IMG/VR virus record: IMGVR_UViG_3300033145_000694
Coordinates: 1-39,312 of that record
Strand: one strand, 5' to 3'
DNA: 39,312 nt
From: a virus
The translations under genes and the position numbers were made by a program. Below, piece after piece: positions 5,962 to 38,729 of the stretch. Under the pieces are notes generated by a model. The model saw only the letters and a program-made list of their open reading frames with translations. It was not told the origin of the DNA and did no database searches. Position 1 is the stretch's first letter. Each line of letters opens with the position of its first letter.

Positions 5962-6902
5962 ATATTGAACAATTTGGAAAAGGATGTTTTCCTGACACTC
6001 CCGATGATAGAGATTATATCATTGAGAATATTTTAGGATGGCCAGAACCCTTTAATTGGGATAAAGGTTTTGACATTGAAGAAAAAGTCGGAATGATAAA
6101 AGTTGAATCACAAGGAAAGTCGTTGTCGTGTGTCGGTCAAGCGTGGAGTTATTACGCTCAAATTTTAGAAATGATAGAAACAGGAGCATTTACAGATTTG
6201 TCCGCTAAAGACATTTATTCAAGAATATTCTTTGAGGGAGGCGGCGCAACCTTACGAGATGGGGCAAAACTGCTTAAAAGCAGAGGTGTAGCGAAAGAAA
6301 CGAGTAATCCGTCATATATGAACGGAAAGCCTCCCACAGAGGCATTTATGAGAGAATTAATAGGTGGAAATGAAAACGAAGCTAAAAAATTCGCTGTTAA
6401 AAGCTTTGCGACCACTACTCATAACAGTATAGACTATATGGCTTCCTATATTCGCGATCATCACGGTTTAGTTTCTGGAGTTATTGGAGATAATGACGGG
6501 TGGAGAATTGGCAGAGATGGAATGGTTCTGCCTCCGACATCAAAGGACTGGGGACACGCTCTTTATTTTGGAAAAGCCAAATTGATAAACGGAGAAAAGT
6601 GTTTAGGATTTATAAATTCTTGGAGCGACGAGTGGGGCAATTATGGTTGGGGCTGGCTTAAGGCAAATTATTTTGGCTCATTATTCGGGCTTTGGACTTT
6701 AATAGATTTACCAAATAACAATAAAAAAATGGAACTAATAAAAGAAAAAGACAGACCAGAAACTTACGCTGTAATAAATGGAAAACATTATTACATTAAA
6801 AGAAAAGCCTTTGACGATTTTTTAGCAGAAGGACTTGTGAAGTGGGAAGACATAAAAGAAACTAATCAAAAAATAGCTATAGATGGAGTTATAGCTGGAT
6901 AA
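5958..6902 (+). CDS. Papain-like (C1) cysteine peptidase, probable lysin
   Basis: A 314-residue protein with the papain catalytic layout: Gln52 six residues before Cys58 (QGKSLSCVGQAWSYY), as in papain Gln19/Cys25. His200 (WGHALYFG) and Asn220 (GFINSWSDEWGNYGWGW) complete the set. There is no signal peptide and no long propeptide. After about residue 257 follows a separate small C-terminal domain containing ETYAVINGKHYYI, which resembles short wall- or surface-binding repeats. Placement between a holin and other lysis genes suggests cleavage of peptide cross-links or surface protein at lysis, with release through the holin. Processing of virion proteins is the alternative. Use of a C1 peptidase in this position is uncommon. 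Confidence 0.8.
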   Translation: MNIEQFGKGCFPDTPDDRDYIIENILGWPEPFNWDKGFDIEEKVGMIKVESQGKSLSCVGQAWSYYAQILEMIETGAFTDLSAKDIYSRIFFEGGGATLRDGAKLLKSRGVAKETSNPSYMNGKPPTEAFMRELIGGNENEAKKFAVKSFATTTHNSIDYMASYIRDHHGLVSGVIGDNDGWRIGRDGMVLPPTSKDWGHALYFGKAKLINGEKCLGFINSWSDEWGNYGWGWLKANYFGSLFGLWTLIDLPNNNKKMELIKEKDRPETYAVINGKHYYIKRKAFDDFLAEGLVKWEDIKETNQKIAIDGVIAG

Positions 6903-6911
6903 GATAAATAA

Positions 6912-7337
6912 ATGAAAAATAAAGAAGAGAAAATTCCTTGGTATACAAATTCATCACAGCTACCAGTTGGATATACAGATGATTTATTTGAAGCATTAGA
7001 ATTACAAGAACCATTACAGACCAAATATACTGGAGGAACGGTTCATCACATTTTTTTAGGAGAAAGATTACCAAGCGGGAAAGAAGCAAAAATGCTTATT
7101 AAAAAAGCCTTTGAAAAAAGTAAAATGCCTTATATGTCTATCTCTCCGACTTTTAGTGTATGTCCCAACCATAAATATATTTCAGGAGAACACTTTGAAT
7201 GTCCTAAATGTGGAGAAAAATGCTTAGTATATGCAAGAGTTGTTGGATATTTAAGACCAGTTCAACAATGGAATGTTGGGAAAACTGCAGAATACAAAGC
7301 CAGAAAAGTGTTCAAACATAAAGTTAAGGTAAAATAA
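6912..7337 (+). CDS. Stand-alone C-terminal glycyl-radical domain of anaerobic ribonucleotide reductase (NrdD)
   Basis: A 141-residue protein that aligns by eye with only the last about 130 residues of class III (NrdD) reductases of the archaeal/Thermotoga type. Markers are PWYTNSSQLPVGYTDD (9-24), LQTKYTGGTVHHIFLGE (35-51), the zinc-site region C84-x2-H87 and C97-x2-C100, and the radical motif RVVGYLRPVQQWNVGK (109-124) with Gly112 as the radical residue. Full NrdD proteins are about 600-700 residues. The barrel with the substrate thiyl cysteine is absent, and no activase (NrdG) is seen in the window. It starts with its own ATG nine bases after the peptidase stop. It could act like GrcA/YfiD, replacing an oxygen-cut radical domain in the host enzyme. 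That role is inference; the homology is clear. Confidence 0.88.
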   Translation: MKNKEEKIPWYTNSSQLPVGYTDDLFEALELQEPLQTKYTGGTVHHIFLGERLPSGKEAKMLIKKAFEKSKMPYMSISPTFSVCPNHKYISGEHFECPKCGEKCLVYARVVGYLRPVQQWNVGKTAEYKARKVFKHKVKVK

Positions 7338-7459: not shown

Positions 7460-7522
7460 ATGATATTTATGATAATAATTTTAGTTGTGTTTAATTTAAT
7501 TAGCTTAATAAAAAAATCATGA
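7460..7522 (+). CDS. Possible membrane micropeptide (17-20 aa)
   Basis: A frame with AAGGA eight bases before the second ATG (7469), so 7469 may be the true start (17 residues). It ends in an ATGA overlap with the next gene. The product is one hydrophobic helix with a KKS end. The overlap and ribosome site are the support; length is the doubt. Confidence 0.3.
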   Translation: MIFMIIILVVFNLISLIKKS

Positions 7523-7737
7523 ACCAAGTAAAAAACAGCTTCGATCGTAAAACATTGGAGAAAATTGGTAAAGGCGCACTCATCGCCGGAACAGGAGCAG
7601 CAACATTATTTATATTAAATGCTGCAGGAACTATTGAAGCGGGAGGACTCACTCCGTTGATCGGATTTCTAGTTCCGTTTTTATCAAACCTTGTCAGAGA
7701 ATATTTGAAAGGCGAAGGCGTTACTATCGTTGAATAA
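7519..7737 (+). CDS. Holin-like small membrane protein
   Basis: A 72-residue protein with a basic N-terminus (FDRKTLEKIGKG), a glycine/alanine-rich hydrophobic helix (about residues 18-35), a second one (about 44-58) and a charged end (REYLKGEGVTIVE). Two short membrane helices with charged ends are usual for small phage holins. It lies between the peptidase and 3D-domain lysin genes. A second holin, antiholin or membrane anchor role is likely. Confidence 0.55.
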   Translation: MNQVKNSFDRKTLEKIGKGALIAGTGAATLFILNAAGTIEAGGLTPLIGFLVPFLSNLVREYLKGEGVTIVE

Positions 7738-7741
7738 TTAA

Positions 7742-7884
7742 AGACATTGAGTGCATAATGGGATACTCCAATTTCAGATACTCAATGTCTAACAAGACAT
7801 TTCAAAGTTTTGCGTTCGTAGTTTCTTTGTCCGGTTGCTCTCCGTGGAGTCGGTACCGATTGGAGTATCCAATCATGCACTCAA
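7742..7884 (+). ncRNA. Candidate structured RNA B with mutually exclusive helices
   Basis: Bases 7747-7772 can pair with 7859-7884 over 26 positions with only two mismatches. The left arm also overlaps a perfect 11-bp inverted repeat (7742-7752 with 7780-7790), whose right arm overlaps a third hairpin (7784-7790 with 7795-7801, loop AACA). These three helices compete, as in switching or attenuating RNAs. A proper terminator follows at 7889. No coding frame fits the region and no known family was recognised. No promoter is obvious just upstream, so it may be the 3' end of the lysis transcript. Confidence 0.6.
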
Positions 7885-7888
7885 AATG

Positions 7889-7915
7889 ACACCTCAATAA
7901 AATTGGGGTGTTTTA
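7889..7915 (+). terminator. Rho-independent terminator
   Basis: ACACCTCAAT pairs with ATTGGGGTGT (10 bp with one T-G pair) around loop AAA and is followed by TTTTA. It ends the lysis operon or structured RNA B. A new promoter follows within 25 bases. Confidence 0.85.
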
Positions 7916-7943
7916 GTTGTCCACAGTTGCAACCATTGACAAC
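7916..7943 (+). promoter_or_regulatory. Operator-like 28-bp palindrome over a -35 site
   Basis: GTTGTC and GACAAC flank a central GTTGCAAC palindrome, all sharing one centre of symmetry. The right arm covers the -35 hexamer of the promoter at 7936. A diverged copy with a damaged left arm lies at 11968-11995. This is the layout expected for a dimeric regulator, which I cannot name. Confidence 0.5.
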
Positions 7944-7964
7944 AAATGAAAACGGGTATATACT
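7936..7964 (+). promoter_or_regulatory. Sigma70-type promoter
   Basis: TTGACA (7936-7941), a 17-base spacer and TATACT (7959-7964). It lies just after a terminator and about 120 bases before the 3D-domain gene at 8086, leaving a long 5' leader. Confidence 0.75.
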
Positions 7965-9229: not shown

Positions 9230-9871
9230 ATGAGCGAAGAATATAATCAAGGAAAAATAAAACCATTAATAAAAATTGTTGCAAGTATATTATATTCAGA
9301 TCCTAACTTGCATTATGACAAACTTATTTCAAAAGTAGAGGCAGAAATCCCAGAACTCAAAGACAAAACTCACTGCGCTAATTGCGGGGCCTCAATGTAT
9401 CAATATGTTTATAATCTAAATGTAATTGATGTAGCGCTTATTATCGGCATGGCAAAGGCGGTCAGGAAGGCAAAAATGGGCACTGTGGGCTTTACGGACG
9501 CAAACAGGGTACATTGTCCAACTTTGCAAGTTTCGGATGCCGTGAGGCATAAAACAACACGATGCGCAAAGCTTGGATTGATCGCAAAATACATAAAAGA
9601 CGGAAAACATGTAAAAGGAACATGGGTAATTACAAGACGAGGATTTGCCGCTTTAAGAGGCGAGGAGATCCCAAATGGAATAATCGTATGGCGCGGACAG
9701 ACAATTGAGCGTCCGGATATTACGACAACATTTAATCAAGTAAGATCAAGATATAAAATAAAGGTCGAAAAAAATAAACAATCAGAAGACAATTACCACA
9801 ACGAAGTCATGAATTATGATCAAAACGAATGGATTGGATTTGACAAATTACACGACGGTACATTATTTTAA
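9230..9871 (+). CDS. Putative DNA-binding protein with Cys pair and winged-helix-like region
   Basis: A 213-residue protein. Residues 48-53 hold HCANCG, a half zinc site, and later single cysteines (RVHCPT, TRCAKL) could complete it. The central part (about 95-150) has the helix-rich pattern SDAVRHKTTRCAKLGLIAKY followed by WVITRRGFAALRG, which looks like a winged-helix unit with its beta wing. The first half is a helical region. A regulator or replication initiator would fit the start of the early region, and no other replication initiator is visible. This is inference from fold-like patterns. Confidence 0.5.
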   Translation: MSEEYNQGKIKPLIKIVASILYSDPNLHYDKLISKVEAEIPELKDKTHCANCGASMYQYVYNLNVIDVALIIGMAKAVRKAKMGTVGFTDANRVHCPTLQVSDAVRHKTTRCAKLGLIAKYIKDGKHVKGTWVITRRGFAALRGEEIPNGIIVWRGQTIERPDITTTFNQVRSRYKIKVEKNKQSEDNYHNEVMNYDQNEWIGFDKLHDGTLF

Positions 9872-10365: not shown

Positions 10366-10386
10366 TAAATATTTATAAATTAACAC

Positions 10387-10553
10387 AATGACTGGCTCTC
10401 CACAGTGCCAAAAATCACCCTAATGAAAAGAAGCATAATATGCAGAAGTGGAACTGTTGGGCGAACATAGTTACCTAAAGAGTAACGACGACTTAAATAG
10501 GAAAAGTTAGTTAGGAGGTGCATCTCCTTTGGATACCCACTGTCCCAGTCATT
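10387..10553 (+). ncRNA. Candidate structured RNA D carrying a full SD sequence in a hairpin
   Basis: AATGACTGG (10387-10395) pairs perfectly with CCAGTCATT (10545-10553). ACAGTG (10402-10407) pairs with CACTGT (10538-10543) just inside. Internal hairpins are GTTAC/GTAAC (10470-10486) and a stem in which AGGAGG (10513-10518) pairs with the following CTCCT. AGGAGGTG is a perfect Shine-Dalgarno sequence, yet the next gene starts about 70 bases later. No open frame explains the region. RNAs C and D fill the gap 10244-10588. Confidence 0.55.
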
Positions 10554-10588
10554 ATGTTAGTTTATAATCAATCTTAATAAATAAACCT

Positions 10589-11960: not shown

Positions 11961-11973
11961 TAAAAAAGTTATA

Positions 11974-12016
11974 CACAGTTACAACCATTGACAACAAACA
12001 GAAACAGATGTAAACT
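11974..12016 (+). promoter_or_regulatory. Sigma70-type promoter with copied upstream element
   Basis: TTGACA (11988-11993), 17-base spacer, TAAACT (12011-12016). The 32 bases 11974-12005 are a near copy of 7922-7953, differing at few positions, and carry the same symmetric element around the -35. It precedes the HTH gene at 12046 and would start the recombination block. Confidence 0.65.
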
Positions 12017-12045
12017 TGAATTAAGATTAATAAATAAGAAAAGAC

Positions 12046-12743: not shown

Positions 12744-13529
12744 ATGAGCAAGAAAAAAACTACAAAAAAAAAGAGCAAAAAACTTATTAGAGTAACAAGT
12801 CCAATAAAAAAGGATGAGGCATTTTTCGTAGCATCAGAATTGGCAGACGACAAACTTGTTGAAAAAGAAGTATTGGGCCAGATAACAAAAACAATGGTAT
12901 ATGAATACGAAAACGAAAATAAAGAAATTGTCCACGGACTATCTTATCAAGGAGTAAGAGAAGCTGTCAGAATTATAAATCGCAGACGTGACAGTGGCCA
13001 CCGGATACAAATATCAGACAAGCCGCCAATTATTGAACGAGATATTATGATACAAGGCGTCCAAGGCGTTGAGGTTCAAATTTATGCAATCGATATTGAA
13101 AGTGGCGGCGGATCATGGGGCTTGAAATTTGAACCATGGCAAAAACAAATATTTGACGGCAAAGGAAGCACAATGACTAATCGCTTTGCGCTAGAGCAAG
13201 CATTGAGCAAAGCACAACGTAATGCTATGTTTAATTTATTGCCAGCAGATCTTATTGAAAGCATGATTGCAAAGTTTGTCAAACAAGAAAGTGCAGTCCA
13301 GAAAATCGAAGCACCAAAGACAATGACACACGAAATTAAGCCAGAAAAAAGCCCAGATGAAAAGATGTATAAATCAACACTTGACAGAGTTGGAGAAATT
13401 AGCAAAGATAAAAAGGCACTAGAAAATGCTTTGACTAAAATTGATAACATGCCAATCAACGGCAAACAGCGCGGACAGATCCGGCGTAAAATTAGTACCT
13501 ATTTAAAAAAGATAAATAAAAAAACATGA
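12744..13529 (+). CDS. Probable single-strand annealing (recombinase) protein
   Basis: A 261-residue protein with a very basic N-terminus (KKKTTKKKSKK). The core contains VHGLSYQGVREAVRIINRR and NRFALEQALSKAQRNAMFNLLPADLIESMI, patterns of RecT/Rad52-type phage annealing proteins. A less conserved linker follows, then a C-terminal helical domain (about 205-258). It overlaps by four bases the PD-(D/E)XK nuclease gene. An annealing protein next to an exonuclease is the standard two-part phage recombination system. The subfamily is uncertain, and the call relies partly on the neighbour. Confidence 0.6.
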   Translation: MSKKKTTKKKSKKLIRVTSPIKKDEAFFVASELADDKLVEKEVLGQITKTMVYEYENENKEIVHGLSYQGVREAVRIINRRRDSGHRIQISDKPPIIERDIMIQGVQGVEVQIYAIDIESGGGSWGLKFEPWQKQIFDGKGSTMTNRFALEQALSKAQRNAMFNLLPADLIESMIAKFVKQESAVQKIEAPKTMTHEIKPEKSPDEKMYKSTLDRVGEISKDKKALENALTKIDNMPINGKQRGQIRRKISTYLKKINKKT

Positions 13530-14167
13530 GCATAGCAAAAAGTACTATTGGAAATCAAAAATTACCGAAGCCTTATATCTCACATTCACAATTCTATTTG
13601 TTTGTGCGTGATCCAATGGCTTATTATAGACAATATTTTATCGCAAGAGTAGATAAGCCAACACCAAAAATGATATTTGGCAAAATATTTCAAGAGGCTT
13701 GGTCCGATAGAAAATATGATTATGAAAAGGCTTTGCAAGAGAATGGTTTTACTTCGGACAAATTACGTGTGATTAAAACGGCATTATCACATCCAGAAAC
13801 ATTTAGACTGCCAAAGAGTAAGACAGAAATAAAACTAGAAATACAACACCCAGATATTGCAGACTATAAGTTACTTGGCTTTCTGGATGGATTAGAAAAA
13901 GACACTCACACTATCACTGAAAATAAAATGGGCGTATGGTGGACAGAAAAAACAGTGAAAGAAAGCACTCAAATTACTTGGTATATGCTTTCGTATTATG
14001 TAAAGTATGGAAAAATGCCAAAGTTAAGATTGCAGAGCTTTAATGCAAATAATGGAATACCGCGCATTTTCTGGGCAAAGCGAACTGTAGCAGACTTTAA
14101 AAATCTCATCATAAATATTAATTCAATGATCACAAAGATTGAATCCGGTGACTTTGAAAAATATTAA
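13526..14167 (+). CDS. PD-(D/E)XK exonuclease (RecB/Cas4-like)
   Basis: A 213-residue nuclease. Visible motifs are the start SHSQFYLFVRDPMAYYRQY, FGKIFQEAW (family 'G..(H/Q)E' region), E101 region, LLGFLDG with Asp121, and TENKMG with Glu132-x-Lys134 as the E-x-K element. The Q-x2-WY motif (STQITWYML) follows. This is the full active-site set of the family. It would resect DNA ends to load the annealing protein encoded just before it. The four-base ATGA overlap supports coordinated synthesis. Confidence 0.8.
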   Translation: MSIAKSTIGNQKLPKPYISHSQFYLFVRDPMAYYRQYFIARVDKPTPKMIFGKIFQEAWSDRKYDYEKALQENGFTSDKLRVIKTALSHPETFRLPKSKTEIKLEIQHPDIADYKLLGFLDGLEKDTHTITENKMGVWWTEKTVKESTQITWYMLSYYVKYGKMPKLRLQSFNANNGIPRIFWAKRTVADFKNLIININSMITKIESGDFEKY

Positions 14168-15311: not shown

Positions 15312-15683
15312 ATGCGACCAATACCAAAAAAATTAAAAGACGAAATGCTTAATGATCCGGCATATCATACTTGCATGCGCAATGCAATGTTTAACGATCA
15401 TATTTGTCAAGGAAGATTAACGCTAGAACATGCTTTTATTTACGCCGGTAAGCAGATAAATGAAAAATGGGCGATAATGTCATTGTGCGCATGGGGTCAT
15501 GATGTTGATGAATATCAAGACGGAGGCAATCTCGATAAAAGAAAAAATGAATATTGCTGCTTGATGAGAGCAACGAGCGAAGATCTGGCAAAATATCCGG
15601 ATAGAGATTGGGAACAATTACGCAAATTTCTGATCAGCAAATATGGACTCCCAAAGATACCCACAGCTTTTACACTTTTTTAA
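15312..15683 (+). CDS. HNH-like nuclease-related protein
   Basis: A 123-residue protein with Cys21, Cys32, a Glu-His pair (GRLTLEHAFIYAGKQI, residues 34-49) and Cys58-x3-His62 (SLCAWGHDVD). This layout recalls small phage HNH/NinG-like nucleases. The second catalytic His of the usual HH pair appears as Gly-His, and downstream residues are LDKRKNEY. It is the last gene before the sRNA unit. A nuclease or a zinc-stabilised binding protein are the options. Confidence 0.5.
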   Translation: MRPIPKKLKDEMLNDPAYHTCMRNAMFNDHICQGRLTLEHAFIYAGKQINEKWAIMSLCAWGHDVDEYQDGGNLDKRKNEYCCLMRATSEDLAKYPDRDWEQLRKFLISKYGLPKIPTAFTLF

Positions 15684-15704
15684 AAATTCAAAGTATGATA
15701 TACT

Positions 15705-15732
15705 TGCAATATCAAGTTGGCATGATATAATA
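15705..15732 (+). promoter_or_regulatory. Promoter of small RNA unit, with inverted repeats
   Basis: TTGCAA (15705-15710), 16-base spacer, TATAAT (15727-15732) with the extended TGA before it. A palindrome AAGTAT-GAT-ATACTT (15692-15706) overlaps the -35 and TATCA/TGATA (15711-15728) brackets the spacer, so repressor control is plausible. Confidence 0.75.
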
Positions 15733-15738
15733 TTTGTA

Positions 15739-15795
15739 TAGGATAGCAATATCCTTACAAAAGCCCGAACCATGCCAACATGACGGGCTTTTTGT
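15739..15795 (+). ncRNA. Candidate small RNA (about 57 nt)
   Basis: Starting about seven bases after the -10, the transcript would hold a perfect 6-bp hairpin with a GNRA-type loop (AGGATA-GCAA-TATCCT, 15741-15756). A Rho-independent terminator follows: AAAAGCCCG (15760-15768) with CGGGCTTTT (15785-15793), an inner CATG/CATG stem, then T-run. No coding frame fits. The next gene begins 20 bases later, with no new promoter, so read-through or processing is possible. Short terminator-bounded RNAs like this may be regulators or an attenuator leader for 15816 onwards. Confidence 0.6.
15760..15795 (+). terminator. Rho-independent terminator of sRNA unit
   Basis: A 9-bp stem AAAAGCCCG/CGGGCTTTT with an inner 4-bp stem and a short T-run. 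It also acts as an attenuator for the genes that follow if transcription comes from 15705. Confidence 0.75.
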
Positions 15796-21041: not shown

Positions 21042-21302
21042 ATGAGCAAAACAATTATAAAACCAAGTAACGAAGACAGAGAAAAAATAAACGCAAAATT
21101 AGAAAAAGTGAATGCTAACACTTGTCGCCAAACAAAACTTATTAACTTTCAAGAAATACGATTTCAAGGAACTTTCACGCTTGAAGAGTTAAAAGAGATT
21201 ACAAGAATTATTGAAATAGCAGAAGCATGGTTGGCTCTTGAATCAAGGCCGCTAGGATATGCTACTAGCGAAACGGAAATTATATTATGTTGTGATTTAT
21301 AA
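21042..21302 (+). CDS. Hypothetical protein (86 aa)
   Basis: A helical, charged protein with two single cysteines and a middle segment FTLEELKEITRIIEIAEAWL. It carries the recurrent AAAAAACTACTATG leader. It is the last gene before the putative packaging operon promoter. No function recognised. Confidence 0.45.
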   Translation: MSKTIIKPSNEDREKINAKLEKVNANTCRQTKLINFQEIRFQGTFTLEELKEITRIIEIAEAWLALESRPLGYATSETEIILCCDL

Positions 21303-21326
21303 ATACAATTGTTATTTTATGAATTA

Positions 21327-21354
21327 TTGATATGATAAAAACATTGTGTAATAT
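21327..21354 (+). promoter_or_regulatory. Putative promoter of packaging/head operon
   Basis: TTGATA (21327-21332), 16-base spacer, TAATAT (21349-21354), 28 bases before the TerS start in an AT-rich 79-base gap. The region is AT-rich, so chance matches are easier; support is its position at the start of the late block. Confidence 0.45.
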
Positions 21355-21381
21355 AAAAATTTATGTTATGTTTTAGATATT

Positions 21382-21885: not shown

Positions 21886-23371
21886 AGAAGCCGTGCAAGA
21901 ACACCCCGGCAAACCGGATCACTTCCGTGATATTTACAAAAAAAAACCGATAACATTAATTAAAACATTTTATCCTCAAATACTATGGCCTAAAAAGTTT
22001 AGACGAATATTTGCGCAAATATGGTTAGGCAAGGCAGGAAAGAAAGTTATTATTACTGGACCACGTGGAGGTGGTAAAAGTGTATTGATGGGAGCGCTTG
22101 GTTTTTCGTTTTGGTATCTACGCAAATATTCAGTTGTAGACATGGGCGGATCACTCGCGCAATCAAAAATAGTATATGGTTATTTTTCAAATATAGTTTA
22201 TTCGATTAAAGCGGCGCTCGGATTTTGCAAAAAAGATCCATTAATGGAACATACCGAAAGTAAAGAGGGAAACTATTTCAAAGCATTGCCAGCATCGCCG
22301 AAAGCAGTCCGCGGACCTCATCCGGATATATTGCTTGCCGATGAAGTTTGTGAAGCTAAAGATGAAATTGTGGGCGATGCTTTGCCAATGGTCACTTCAA
22401 GCGAAAATCCTTTGACAGTTTTAACAAGTACATTCCATAAAATATTTGGAGCTTTCCAAGAGATATGGGATCAAGCAGATGAATTGGGATACACTCGTTT
22501 TTCTTGGGATATTTTTGATGTAGTAAAAAGTTTTGATCCGAATATTTGGAACGATCCAAAGCTAAATAGATTAATACCAGACTTAGATAAATTAAAAGAA
22601 TTGGCAGGAGGAAGAATAGGAGATCCAGAGGGTTGGGTTCGCATTGAAAATGTAATTGATGCATGGCAAGGTAAGAGATCTATTGATTGGTTTCTTGTAG
22701 AATTTATGGGAACACGACCAAGCGCAAGCGGTTTGGTTAACGATCCGATTGATGTTGAGGCGGCAGTATTTGATATTTTAGAAAAAGAAGTGTATAGTTA
22801 TATCAAAGGCGCGGAAACTATCGGAGGCATTGACTGGGGATTTTCAAGCATGACGGCAAACGTTGTTTTTATGAAGCATCAAGACGATGTCAAAGTTCAA
22901 CTAAAAAATAGAAATTATACACAAGTCGCAAGCGAGATTATTATTGAAGACGCTTGTGAAGATGTAAAAAAGTACGGCATTTTAAGATATTATTGTGACA
23001 GTGCAGGAAAGTTTGAGAATGAAGCATTTAAACGGGAACTTAAAAAAAGACGTTTAAAATGTAAAATAGTTGAAGTAGTGTTTAGACAAGAAAAAGAAAT
23101 GATGCTAGGAAACTATCGCGCGCATTTCCAAAGAAGAAAAATAAAAATACCGATTGAATGTAAAGAAGCAAAATGGCAACACAAGCGATACAGATATATA
23201 CCAGGAACAGATAAGCCAGTCAAAAAAGATGATCATATTCCAGACGCAACAATGTGCGCATTCCAACATTGGCCATTAGGAAAAGATCCTCAACATTTTA
23301 AAGATTTACCAGACCACGACAAAACAGTATTGCCGACAATATCAAAAGGCATACTTGACAAAAAGTTTTAA
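21824..23371 (+). CDS. Large terminase subunit (TerL)
   Basis: The ATG at 21824 gives 515 residues; a TTG at 21788 would extend it by 12. Walker A is GPRGGGKS (79-86), Walker B is ILLADEV (169-175; Asp173, Glu174), then the coupling motif TSTFHK. The nuclease part starts with IGGIDWGFSSM (about 335), and the C-terminal DDHIPDA (about 480) gives another metal-binding aspartate. The protein drives packaging with ATP and cuts the DNA. It is well placed between TerS and portal. Confidence 0.9.
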   Translation: MIHLPILSQKQKARELLIQIKEAVQEHPGKPDHFRDIYKKKPITLIKTFYPQILWPKKFRRIFAQIWLGKAGKKVIITGPRGGGKSVLMGALGFSFWYLRKYSVVDMGGSLAQSKIVYGYFSNIVYSIKAALGFCKKDPLMEHTESKEGNYFKALPASPKAVRGPHPDILLADEVCEAKDEIVGDALPMVTSSENPLTVLTSTFHKIFGAFQEIWDQADELGYTRFSWDIFDVVKSFDPNIWNDPKLNRLIPDLDKLKELAGGRIGDPEGWVRIENVIDAWQGKRSIDWFLVEFMGTRPSASGLVNDPIDVEAAVFDILEKEVYSYIKGAETIGGIDWGFSSMTANVVFMKHQDDVKVQLKNRNYTQVASEIIIEDACEDVKKYGILRYYCDSAGKFENEAFKRELKKRRLKCKIVEVVFRQEKEMMLGNYRAHFQRRKIKIPIECKEAKWQHKRYRYIPGTDKPVKKDDHIPDATMCAFQHWPLGKDPQHFKDLPDHDKTVLPTISKGILDKKF

Positions 23372-25815: not shown

Positions 25816-27072
25816 ATGAAAAAGAAAACAGCAAAAGAAATAAAAAAATTACCAATAGTATTCCAGATAGATCTGCAAACATTTTCAGAGAGTGGAGAAT
25901 TGCCAAAAGAAATACAAGTGTTGCCTATAGGAAAATGGAATCATCCAGCTTATGGACCTATTACAATAACGCGTGAAGATATAGAACAATTTAAACAAAA
26001 CTTTGATAATGGTCTTAGAAAAGATATACCAATTACAGCAGGTCATGAGAGTTTTGATGAAAAACCTGCAGTTGGTTGGTTTGTCGAACTAATCAATAAA
26101 GGTGGCAACGGTTTATATGCGTCAATAGAATGGACTAAAAAGGGAAAAACCCTTTTATCCGAAAAGTCTTACAAATACTTTTCGCCGGAGTTCTACTCCG
26201 AATATGAAGATCCCGAAACACGGGAGATACATGAAAACGTATTGGTAGGAGGCGCGCTAACCAACAAGCCATATTTTAAAGAACTTGAGGCTGTTGTCTT
26301 GAGTGAACAAATAATCAATAATAAATTAAAATTTAACGATATGACATTAGAAGAAATATTGGCAAAAAAAGTTGAAGAACTTTCAGCAGACGAAAAAACT
26401 TTTTTACAAGCCAACAAAGAACAATTAAGTGAAGAACAATTAGCAACTTTTGGAAGCGTTTTTGAAGATGAAAAAACAGAAGAAAAAACAGAGGAGAAGA
26501 CAGAGGAGAAGACAGAGGAAGAAAATACTGAAGAAAAAACTGAAGAAAAAGAGGAAGAAAAAACAGAGGAAAAAACCGAAGAAAAAACAGAAGAAGAAAA
26601 TACAGAAGAAAAGGTTGAAGCAAGCGAATTTAAAATGAATGAAAAAGGTGAAGTTATAATGACAGCAGCACAAGCAAAGGCATTGGCATCAAAGGCAAAT
26701 GCAGGCTATGAAGCAAGCGAAAAATTAAGAATGTCAGAAGTAAAAACAGCAAGTAACAAACTTGTCTTTTCGGAGCAGAACTCCAAAGGCAAGATTTTAC
26801 CAAAAAATGAGCAAAAAGTATTTAGCTTTATGCTCGGATTGACAGAGGCACAACGAAAAACGTTTGCCGAACTTGTGGACAGCATCCCAAGCAGTCAATT
26901 ATTCAATGAAAAAGGAAGCGGTCAAGTAGTCGAAGGATCAGCTCTCGCAGAGATTGAATCAAAAGCAAAGATTATGATGAGTGAAGATAAAGCACTCAAT
27001 TACTCCGATGCGGTAAATAAAGTTTGCAGTGAGAACAAATCTCTTGCAGAACGCTACGCGAAAGAACTATAA
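25816..27072 (+). CDS. Mu I-like prohead protease with scaffold domain
   Basis: A 418-residue protein. The N-terminal about 165 residues follow the Mu I protein type: GKWNHPAYGPITITREDIEQF, ITAGHESF, AVGWFVEL, SIEWTKKGKTLL, YKYFSPEF and VLVGGALTNKP. The ITAGH His and the ALTN region are the expected catalytic area. The rest (about 170-418) is a scaffold-like helical part including an acidic repeat stretch of EEKTEEKTE (about 218-268), then MTAAQAKALASKA and a last helical end. The protease is expected to cleave the scaffold and itself during head maturation. Confidence 0.8.
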   Translation: MKKKTAKEIKKLPIVFQIDLQTFSESGELPKEIQVLPIGKWNHPAYGPITITREDIEQFKQNFDNGLRKDIPITAGHESFDEKPAVGWFVELINKGGNGLYASIEWTKKGKTLLSEKSYKYFSPEFYSEYEDPETREIHENVLVGGALTNKPYFKELEAVVLSEQIINNKLKFNDMTLEEILAKKVEELSADEKTFLQANKEQLSEEQLATFGSVFEDEKTEEKTEEKTEEKTEEENTEEKTEEKEEEKTEEKTEEKTEEENTEEKVEASEFKMNEKGEVIMTAAQAKALASKANAGYEASEKLRMSEVKTASNKLVFSEQNSKGKILPKNEQKVFSFMLGLTEAQRKTFAELVDSIPSSQLFNEKGSGQVVEGSALAEIESKAKIMMSEDKALNYSDAVNKVCSENKSLAERYAKEL

Positions 27073-35032: not shown

Positions 35033-35284
35033 ATGTCATTTTTATTGAAAGAAGATGGAAGCTATATACTTCAGGAAACAGGAGATAAAATCTTATTGGA
35101 TACTGGAATTATCATACAAAAAATTTGGAAAAAGATAACAAATCTATCAACAATAAATAAAAAGACAAATCTATCAACAAAGAATAAACAGAATATTTTA
35201 TCAACAATAAATAAAAAGACAAATCTATCAACAAAGAATAAACAGAATATTTTATCAACAATAAATAAAAAGACAAATCTATGA
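35033..35284 (+). CDS. Repeat-containing small protein (83 aa)
   Basis: The first about 25 residues (SFLLKEDGSYILQETGDKILLD) are a beta-hairpin type module common at the ends of phage structural genes. Then five 9-residue repeats of the type (N/I)LSTxNKxx follow, encoded by the tandem DNA repeat. It ends in an ATGA overlap with the connector gene. The repeat part may be variable in length between strains. Confidence 0.5.
   Translation: MSFLLKEDGSYILQETGDKILLDTGIIIQKIWKKITNLSTINKKTNLSTKNKQNILSTINKKTNLSTKNKQNILSTINKKTNL
35138..35280 (+). repeat. 54-bp tandem repeat made of two 27-bp halves
   Basis: A unit of 54 bp repeats about 2.5 times within a gene and keeps the reading frame. Each half encodes nine residues of the type (N/I)LSTxNKxx. 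No spacers, so not CRISPR. Confidence 0.9.
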
Positions 35285-36195
35285 GAAATTTTACCGCGCC
35301 AACAGAGAATTTTGTTTTTACAGAAATATCAGAAATTGATTTAGATGTTTCGGCTGGCAGTAGTGTTACACTTAAATTATTAAGCAACAACGGATTTGCC
35401 GACAATGATTTTGTAATGGTAAAAGAAAGCGGAAACGATCAAGCACATATATGCCAAATAAATGCGGTAGTATCCGGCAATACGGACATTCAAGTTGATA
35501 CTCTAAAATATGATCTGAAAAAAGGCGATAAGGTAATTAAGATATTATTCAATCAAAGAAAATTTTACGGATGTTTAACTTCTGACGGAACTTATACAGA
35601 AATAACAGCCGACGGATCACCAAAAGGAATTGAAGTTGATAATCCAAACGGAACACTATTTGAATATACAGGATCAGAGGACTATTTATATTTTAAATGC
35701 ACTTACTATAATTCAGAAACATTAACGGAAACTGATATTGACGATTCGGAAGCCGTATTAGGAGGGGAAACAGATAGATATTGTTCAATTTACGCAATAA
35801 GAGTACAAACAGGATTAGTACAAAACCCATACATAAATGACATAAGAATAAATAGAAAAAGAAAACAGGCAGAAAATGAAATTAATTCGTCATTATTTAG
35901 CAGATATACTTTGCCGTTGGAAGAAGTGCCACCGTTAGTACAGAATATTTGCGAATTATTAGCAAGCGGTTATATAGATTTTGAAGAGTTTGGACCAGAG
36001 GGTCAAGGCGTTAAATGGCTTGGAGAGGGCAGAGCATTATTAAAAGCAATTCAGACCGGACGACAAAGACTTATCGGGACAGATGATACAGAGCTTGCCA
36101 CGGTTTCAACAACAAATTCTTTACAAGGCTATCCGGATAACGACGGAGATGATGACACTCCGGAGCGCGCATTTTCAATTGATAAAAAATACTAA
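35281..36195 (+). CDS. Head-tail connector (DUF1320/Mu gp36-like) with N-terminal extension
   Basis: A 304-residue protein. The C-terminal about 110 residues have the DUF1320 pattern: EINSSLFSRYTLPLEEVPPLVQNICELLASGYIDF, then GQGVKWLGEGRALLKAIQTG. The first about 180 residues are an extra beta-rich domain (LDVSAGSSVTLKLLSN), not normal for the family. The protein joins the portal to the tail. It overlaps the previous gene by four bases. Confidence 0.7.
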   Translation: MRNFTAPTENFVFTEISEIDLDVSAGSSVTLKLLSNNGFADNDFVMVKESGNDQAHICQINAVVSGNTDIQVDTLKYDLKKGDKVIKILFNQRKFYGCLTSDGTYTEITADGSPKGIEVDNPNGTLFEYTGSEDYLYFKCTYYNSETLTETDIDDSEAVLGGETDRYCSIYAIRVQTGLVQNPYINDIRINRKRKQAENEINSSLFSRYTLPLEEVPPLVQNICELLASGYIDFEEFGPEGQGVKWLGEGRALLKAIQTGRQRLIGTDDTELATVSTTNSLQGYPDNDGDDDTPERAFSIDKKY

Positions 36196-38369: not shown

Positions 38370-38729
38370 ATGAACAACGAACAAAGAGAAACAAAGGAGA
38401 TAAAAGTTGGCGAGCATGCTCTAATTGTTAATACCTATCTTACAGGTAGAGAAGCTAGATCTATTGAGAGTCTTATGATGGATAAATTAGAAATGAGCCA
38501 AAGCACAAAAGACGGAGAGGAAAAAGGGGAAACAATGATTACTGGATTCAAAGGCAGTCTTTTAAGTGATCGGCAAGATTTTCAAGTTAAAGCTGTTATT
38601 GTTTCGTTCAATGGTAAAACAGAAAATATACTAGACACAATATTAGATTTGCCAAGAAATGATAGCGAGGAAATAATGAAAATTGTGAGTGAAATTGCAG
38701 AACCTAAAAAAAAAGCAAACGACAAATAG
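38370..38729 (+). CDS. Tail assembly chaperone, short form (gpG-like)
   Basis: A 119-residue acidic helical protein before the tape measure, the standard place of the tail assembly chaperone. The frame stops at 38729, while a second frame continues to 38911. Near the end lies an A9 run (38706-38714). It keeps the tape measure soluble until the tube forms. Confidence 0.8.
   Translation: MNNEQRETKEIKVGEHALIVNTYLTGREARSIESLMMDKLEMSQSTKDGEEKGETMITGFKGSLLSDRQDFQVKAVIVSFNGKTENILDTILDLPRNDSEEIMKIVSEIAEPKKKANDK
38706..38714 (+). promoter_or_regulatory. Slippery A9 site for -1 ribosomal frameshift
   Basis: Nine A residues in the last codons of the gpG-like gene, in phase such that a -1 slip continues in the frame to 38911. 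This is the known mechanism for making the long tail chaperone (lambda gpGT type). No obvious stimulator stem was sought. Confidence 0.8.

Follow-up and report, generated by a model that had tools for sequence, protein, structure and literature searches.

The DNA analysed here (hereafter the window) is a 39.3 kb phage record, IMG/VR IMGVR_UViG_3300033145_000694 (39,312 nt), that encodes a Mu-type portal, a phrog_1005 capsid protein and an ordinary terminase large subunit. The single cellular contig in the genome collection with a relative of the capsid protein belongs to a Patescibacteria MAG, which makes a Patescibacterium the probable host. The plus strand carries a structured element, which we call RNA B, between the lysis genes and an early promoter. 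The features of the locus are as follows:

7519-7737, plus strand: 72-aa small hydrophobic gene (holin-like, lysis region), the last gene 5′ of RNA B
7743-7887, plus strand: RNA B core, 145 nt, structured non-coding RNA (CM R2 match, 127.6 bits)
7747-7773, plus strand: 5′ strand of P1, the long closing helix (~26 bp), pairing with 7858-7884
7780-7783, plus strand: 5′ strand of P1b, ACUC, pairing with 7847-7850
7784-7801, plus strand: P2 hairpin, AAUGUCU-AACA-AGACAUU
7803-7829, plus strand: P3 hairpin, stem CAAAG/CUUUG
7808-7824, plus strand: P3 loop, proposed antisense segment UUUUGCGUUCGUAGUUU, reverse complement of the gene-start context
7831-7847, plus strand: P4 hairpin region, loop UUGCUC
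7847-7850, plus strand: 3′ strand of P1b, GAGU, pairing with 7780-7783
7858-7884, plus strand: 3′ strand of P1
7888-7912, plus strand: intrinsic terminator, a hairpin directly behind RNA B
7936-7964, plus strand: early-operon promoter TTGACA-17-TATACT (11 of 12 consensus), outside RNA B

A family search gave no match for the 72-aa gene; in relatives, small membrane or exported-protein genes occupy its position. Further upstream, at 6912-7337, lies a 141-aa stand-alone C-terminal glycyl-radical domain of the anaerobic ribonucleotide reductase NrdD (PF13597 positions 436-562, E = 6e-46), which may serve, in the manner of GrcA, as a spare part for repair.

To find homologues of RNA B, we first baited searches with the terminase, a tail protein and an early protein, and afterwards applied a covariance model. 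Four related phages besides the window carry a copy, the last two listed having been first detected by the covariance model (E = 8e-10 and 8e-6, respectively):

G004, 13650-13789: RNA B homologue
G012 (L026), 13229-13364: RNA B homologue
G014 (L029), 9268-9418: RNA B homologue
G011 (L025), 15643-15786: RNA B homologue

The core is 136-151 nt long across the five copies. Each homologue shares the strand and the location of the window copy, where the lysis region ends, with the lysis genes on one side and the early promoter on the other. G003, although closely related and with this region intact, lacks RNA B, which is therefore not essential in this phage group. BLAST of RNA B against phage records returned nothing useful, protein queries with the 72-aa gene and a 3D-like protein found no relatives, and a promoter-pattern scan recovered known relatives only. 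Two new, unrelated matches in a helix-pattern scan of viral contigs were judged to be chance, and the sole match of the RNA model in 380 and 381 Patescibacteria genomes (phylum/class) was the processing stem that flanks 16S rRNA.

The initial annotation had described a 26-position helix ahead of a terminator, and had named folding and a covariation search on metagenomic relatives as checks. The 26-nt arms at 7747-7772 and 7859-7884 are indeed complementary at 24 positions (92%), and a terminator-like hairpin is found at 7888-7912. Including the terminator, the 174 nt fold at -63.9 kcal/mol, compared with -36.3 ± 3.7 kcal/mol for shuffled sequences (z -7.5; 0 of 200 shuffles). Compensatory changes were also found, in an alignment of five homologous sequences whose helices were aligned by hand, a procedure biased towards the structure. 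P1 is paired in 121 of 135 cells, a value that none of 119 partner permutations equals, and 14 of its 25 counted pairs show double-sided changes. For P1 and P1b together, 90.3% of cells are paired against 77.8% in shuffles (none of 500 as high), and pairing drops to about 39% when the strands are slid. P1 is also strongly conserved in sequence (GGRYRYUYCAAYU/RUUGRRRURUCC). The inner helix P1b, of 4-5 bp, is kept by compensatory changes: it pairs in all five copies (ACUC/GAGU, CCUC/GAGG, CCCC/GGGG, AGUC/GGCU and CCAG/CUGG), with double-sided changes in 4 of 4 pairs. P3 is likewise present in every copy, with 25 of 25 cells paired and double-sided changes in three of the five stem pairs (CAAAG/CUUUG, AUAAG/CUUGU, GUAAG/CUUAC, CAAGG/CCUUG and GGAAG/CUUCC). 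P2, also with double-sided changes, occurs in four of the five copies and is missing from G011; P4 forms a hairpin in the folds of G004, G014 and G012, and is weaker in the window. The unconstrained minimum free energy folds of those same three phages agree on P1, an inner loop, P1b and P2-P3-P4, with almost no unpaired bases between the last three hairpins, while G011 retains P1, P1b and P3 and has P2 and P4 replaced. Summed over the homologues, G-U cells outnumber A-C cells on the plus strand by 23 to 6, indicating that RNA B is read from this strand. We conclude that RNA B is a real, conserved, structured RNA, with compensatory changes above the controls.

Reading frames through RNA B are not conserved (stops interrupt them in three of the five copies), and RNA B is therefore not a gene; a coding reading based on a 43-aa frame that spans it in the window was dropped, since the homologues do not keep this frame. 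A minus-strand gene starting in the P3 loop was also rejected, as there is no AUG there in the window or G014. No family of Rfam 15 matched RNA B at the gathering threshold or at E values up to 10, ARAGORN found no tRNA or tmRNA gene in the window, and our literature search returned no description of such non-coding RNAs from Patescibacteria phages. On these comparisons, RNA B appears to be a folded RNA that belongs to no known class and has not been described before. The initial annotation had read it as a structured RNA of unrecognised class with the logic of a switch; the first part of that reading holds, and the second, discussed below, is not supported.

Gene starts in these phages, as called by a simple ORF rule, mostly lack a Shine-Dalgarno (SD) sequence and tend towards AAUAAAAAACU-AUGA(GC)AAAA; many genes have the start-site signature AAAC(U/C)AUGAGCAAAA. 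The P3 loop, with the consensus UUUU-GCUCRURGUUU, is the reverse complement of these SD-less starts (AAACUAUGAGCAAAA), which makes it complementary to the start codon and the bases on either side of it. The loops read GUUCGUAG in the window, GCUCAUGU in G004, GCUCAUGG in G012, GCUCGUAG in G014 and GCUCAUAG in G011, and are mostly framed by U runs. The G011 loop segment UUUUGCUCAUAGUUU matches the reverse complement of AAACUAUGAGCAAAA exactly, and the variants GCUCAUGG and GCUCAUGU come from genomes with frequent CCAUG and ACAUG starts. The window loop has CGU in place of CAU, so that G-U pairs are needed. The GCUC of the P4 loop is also antisense to the GAGC of AUGAGC starts. Exact copies of the loop motif on the opposite strand coincide in several cases with gene starts, and of the 15 occurrences of CTATGAGC in seven related records, 12 are at called starts.

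Among all 14-nt segments of each RNA, the one with the strongest preference for starts over gene interiors belonged to the P3 loop in every one of the five phages. Against shuffles that preserve the CAU/CGU block, the mean start-minus-internal preference gave p values of 0.005, 0.0175, 0.02 and 0.042 in the other phages and 0.20 in the window; these values are not independent, the five loops being related by descent, and with A-rich starts and a U-rich loop the shuffles control only partly for composition. The best target site in G012 and in G011 was reached by none of 1500 shuffled loops, whereas the same test was not significant in the window and G004 (p = 0.21 and 0.15), and these target statistics are partly post hoc, since the focus on P3 was chosen after the match had been seen. 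In G012, gene 23862 offers 15 nt of mismatch-free pairing from the AUG onward, followed by 6 more past a one-base bulge; four starts in G011 offer runs of 16, 15, 14 and 13, some with G-U pairs. The gene at window position 38370 (the next after the one behind the capsid/tail genes), for which homologues were identified, ranks with the better sites in each of the five phages. We observed no consistent bias towards early or late targets, and a loop did not always score best in its own genome.

We propose, tentatively and at slightly less than even confidence, that RNA B is a loop-displayed antisense RNA that blocks the translation starts of several phage mRNAs. From its strand and position, we infer that it is transcribed with the late (lysis) mRNA; the region upstream of it in the window holds no convincing promoter of its own. 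The transcript would end at the terminator, and RNA B would be freed from the late mRNA and probably trimmed, possibly by RNase III or another nuclease. The closing and inner helices would serve as a scaffold displaying P3, which P2 and P4 would usually flank in a compact four-way junction, and the P3 loop, together in part with the P4 loop, would present the reverse complement of the SD-less start signature. Most likely, RNA B would act in trans on multiple targets, the loop covering start codons and blocking initiation. Such a mechanism is plausible given the precedent of the c4 RNA of phages P1 and P7, whose loop segments block the translation start of a phage mRNA by base-pairing around it (PMC12197685). 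Like c4 (RF01695), RNA B is a small phage RNA with loop segments complementary to phage translation starts, a complementarity that is significant in G011 and G012 and only suggestive in the window and G004. Unlike c4, it does not match the RF01695 model, has a different fold and shows no link to immunity, and while c4 acts on ant, the predicted pairing partners of RNA B are many SD-less starts throughout the genome. The likeness does not, with Rfam giving no match, make RNA B a c4 RNA.

A broader form of the antisense proposal, which we consider doubtful, is that RNA B is a phage-wide translation silencer. One RNA would read the SD-less start signature and shut down or re-balance phage protein synthesis at a late stage of Patescibacteria infection, with a hairpin in the position of the anticodon arm of a cloverleaf and wobble pairs letting a single loop cover many starts; the layout recalls a cloverleaf whose middle arm bears a CAU or CGU triplet, but as a resemblance only. 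A conserved RNA aimed at the start signature that SD-less genes have in common would show how translation can be governed globally without an anti-SD site. On the antisense reading, which yields a directly testable prediction, RNA B may be a switch-off signal for protein making in a virus whose probable hosts are tiny and poorly known bacteria.

Alternatively, RNA B may be a structured RNA that acts by its shape (in protein binding, in packaging or as a decoy), in which case the likeness of P3 to gene starts would be due to chance or common origin. Most antisense sRNAs are far less elaborate than its closing helix and junction, the sequence of P1 is itself strongly conserved, and the window's own copy gives a weak antisense signal. 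We nevertheless think this unlikely, as the loop is conserved as antisense to starts, with a significant site preference in G011 and G012.

Several other known RNAs resemble RNA B in part. GOLLD and ROOL are phage-associated; the Y RNA YrlA has a long stem formed from both ends with a cloverleaf-like module at its tip; and the packaging RNA of phi29 is a phage RNA with paired ends and a branched core. RNA B resembles YrlA in its end-to-end long stem and cloverleaf-like tip, but these phages have no Ro/TROVE protein: Ro60/Rsr (TROVE, PF05731) is absent from the seven phage records, some of which are fragments. With the phi29 RNA it shares paired ends and a branched core, although the terminase large subunit of the window phage is ordinary. 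GOLLD and ROOL are, like RNA B, elaborate RNAs backed by covariation (PMC12286853), but both are several-fold larger. For all of these, Rfam gave no match to RNA B.

Rather improbable, in our estimate, is a cis-acting 3′-UTR element whose double-stranded helix sets the stability or the RNase III processing of lysis mRNAs. RNA B invariably follows the last of the lysis genes and shares their strand, its helix is long and double-stranded, and RNase III is encoded in the one related Patescibacteria genome searched; yet this model leaves the conserved inner helices and the P3 loop unexplained, and in G012 a terminator-like hairpin separates the last lysis gene from RNA B.

The initial annotation had favoured an attenuator, a riboswitch or a bistable RNA ahead of the terminator, and the overlapping matches on which it relied are present in the sequence. 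The match between 7742-7752 and 7780-7790 is perfect over 11 bp and above chance in the window (p = 0.0015), and that between 7784-7790 and 7795-7801 is perfect over 7 bp. However, the 11-bp helix was not found in the four other copies (p = 0.31-0.72). The long-helix form has -51.0 kcal/mol, against -28.3 kcal/mol for the best fold with the 3′ part (RNA positions 115 onward) unpaired, and because of this difference of about 23 kcal/mol the competing helix would form at most transiently while the RNA is being transcribed. There is no overlap between the terminator and the helices of RNA B; the terminator is also close 3′ of RNA B in G004 and G012, but lies about 100 nt downstream in G014 and about 700 nt downstream in G011. 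RNA B therefore cannot gate it in the usual way. Only in G011 do small open frames, several of them and with SD-like sites, lie directly behind RNA B, and with its terminator so far off, control of the terminator is not a conserved feature. In the window, G004, G012 and G014, RNA B precedes the terminator, and the next operon, opened in the window by the promoter at 7936-7964, starts from its own promoter where the sequence reaches it. A TTGACAA(C/G)AAAT-type promoter lies behind RNA B in the window and in the three homologues whose contigs extend far enough (G004, G011 and G012), and G003 has an early promoter at the equivalent place although it lacks RNA B. Thus RNA B neither has mutually exclusive conserved helices, one of them forming or controlling a terminator, nor sits in the leader of a regulated gene, and we regard a switch as very improbable. 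Also hardly credible is a DNA-level element (a mobile inverted repeat, or a recombination or replication site), which a large inverted repeat in a gene-free spot beside a DnaA-box-like site and a promoter might suggest, since the one-strand G-U excess and the covariation of the inner helices argue for selection at the RNA level.

DnaA-box-like sites of the TTGTCCACA/TTATCCACA type occur at window positions 7917-7925 and 11970-11977, and such sites lie just 5′ of the early promoter in the window, G003, G004, G011 and G012. A promoter-like 57-nt repeat recurs at 11967-12023. In both G004 and G003, a C-rich helix element (L014 13838-13920; L013 about 6060-6141, minus strand), in which GGGGTACC..ATTTTCAC is conserved, separates the late terminator from the early promoter. 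Two long-helix elements in the early region of G004 (21252-21369 and 23104-23220; L015 1252-1369 and 3104-3220) have no evident sequence likeness to RNA B. In the window, a second long inverted repeat (10376-10564; 18 of 20 outer pairs) lies in a gap between early genes, and its minus strand gives the better fold (-72.9 vs -57.0, the stretches folded differing slightly). A tandem coding repeat rich in E, K and T lies at 26467-26604, and a 27-nt spaced tandem repeat at 35129-35289 precedes gene 35281.
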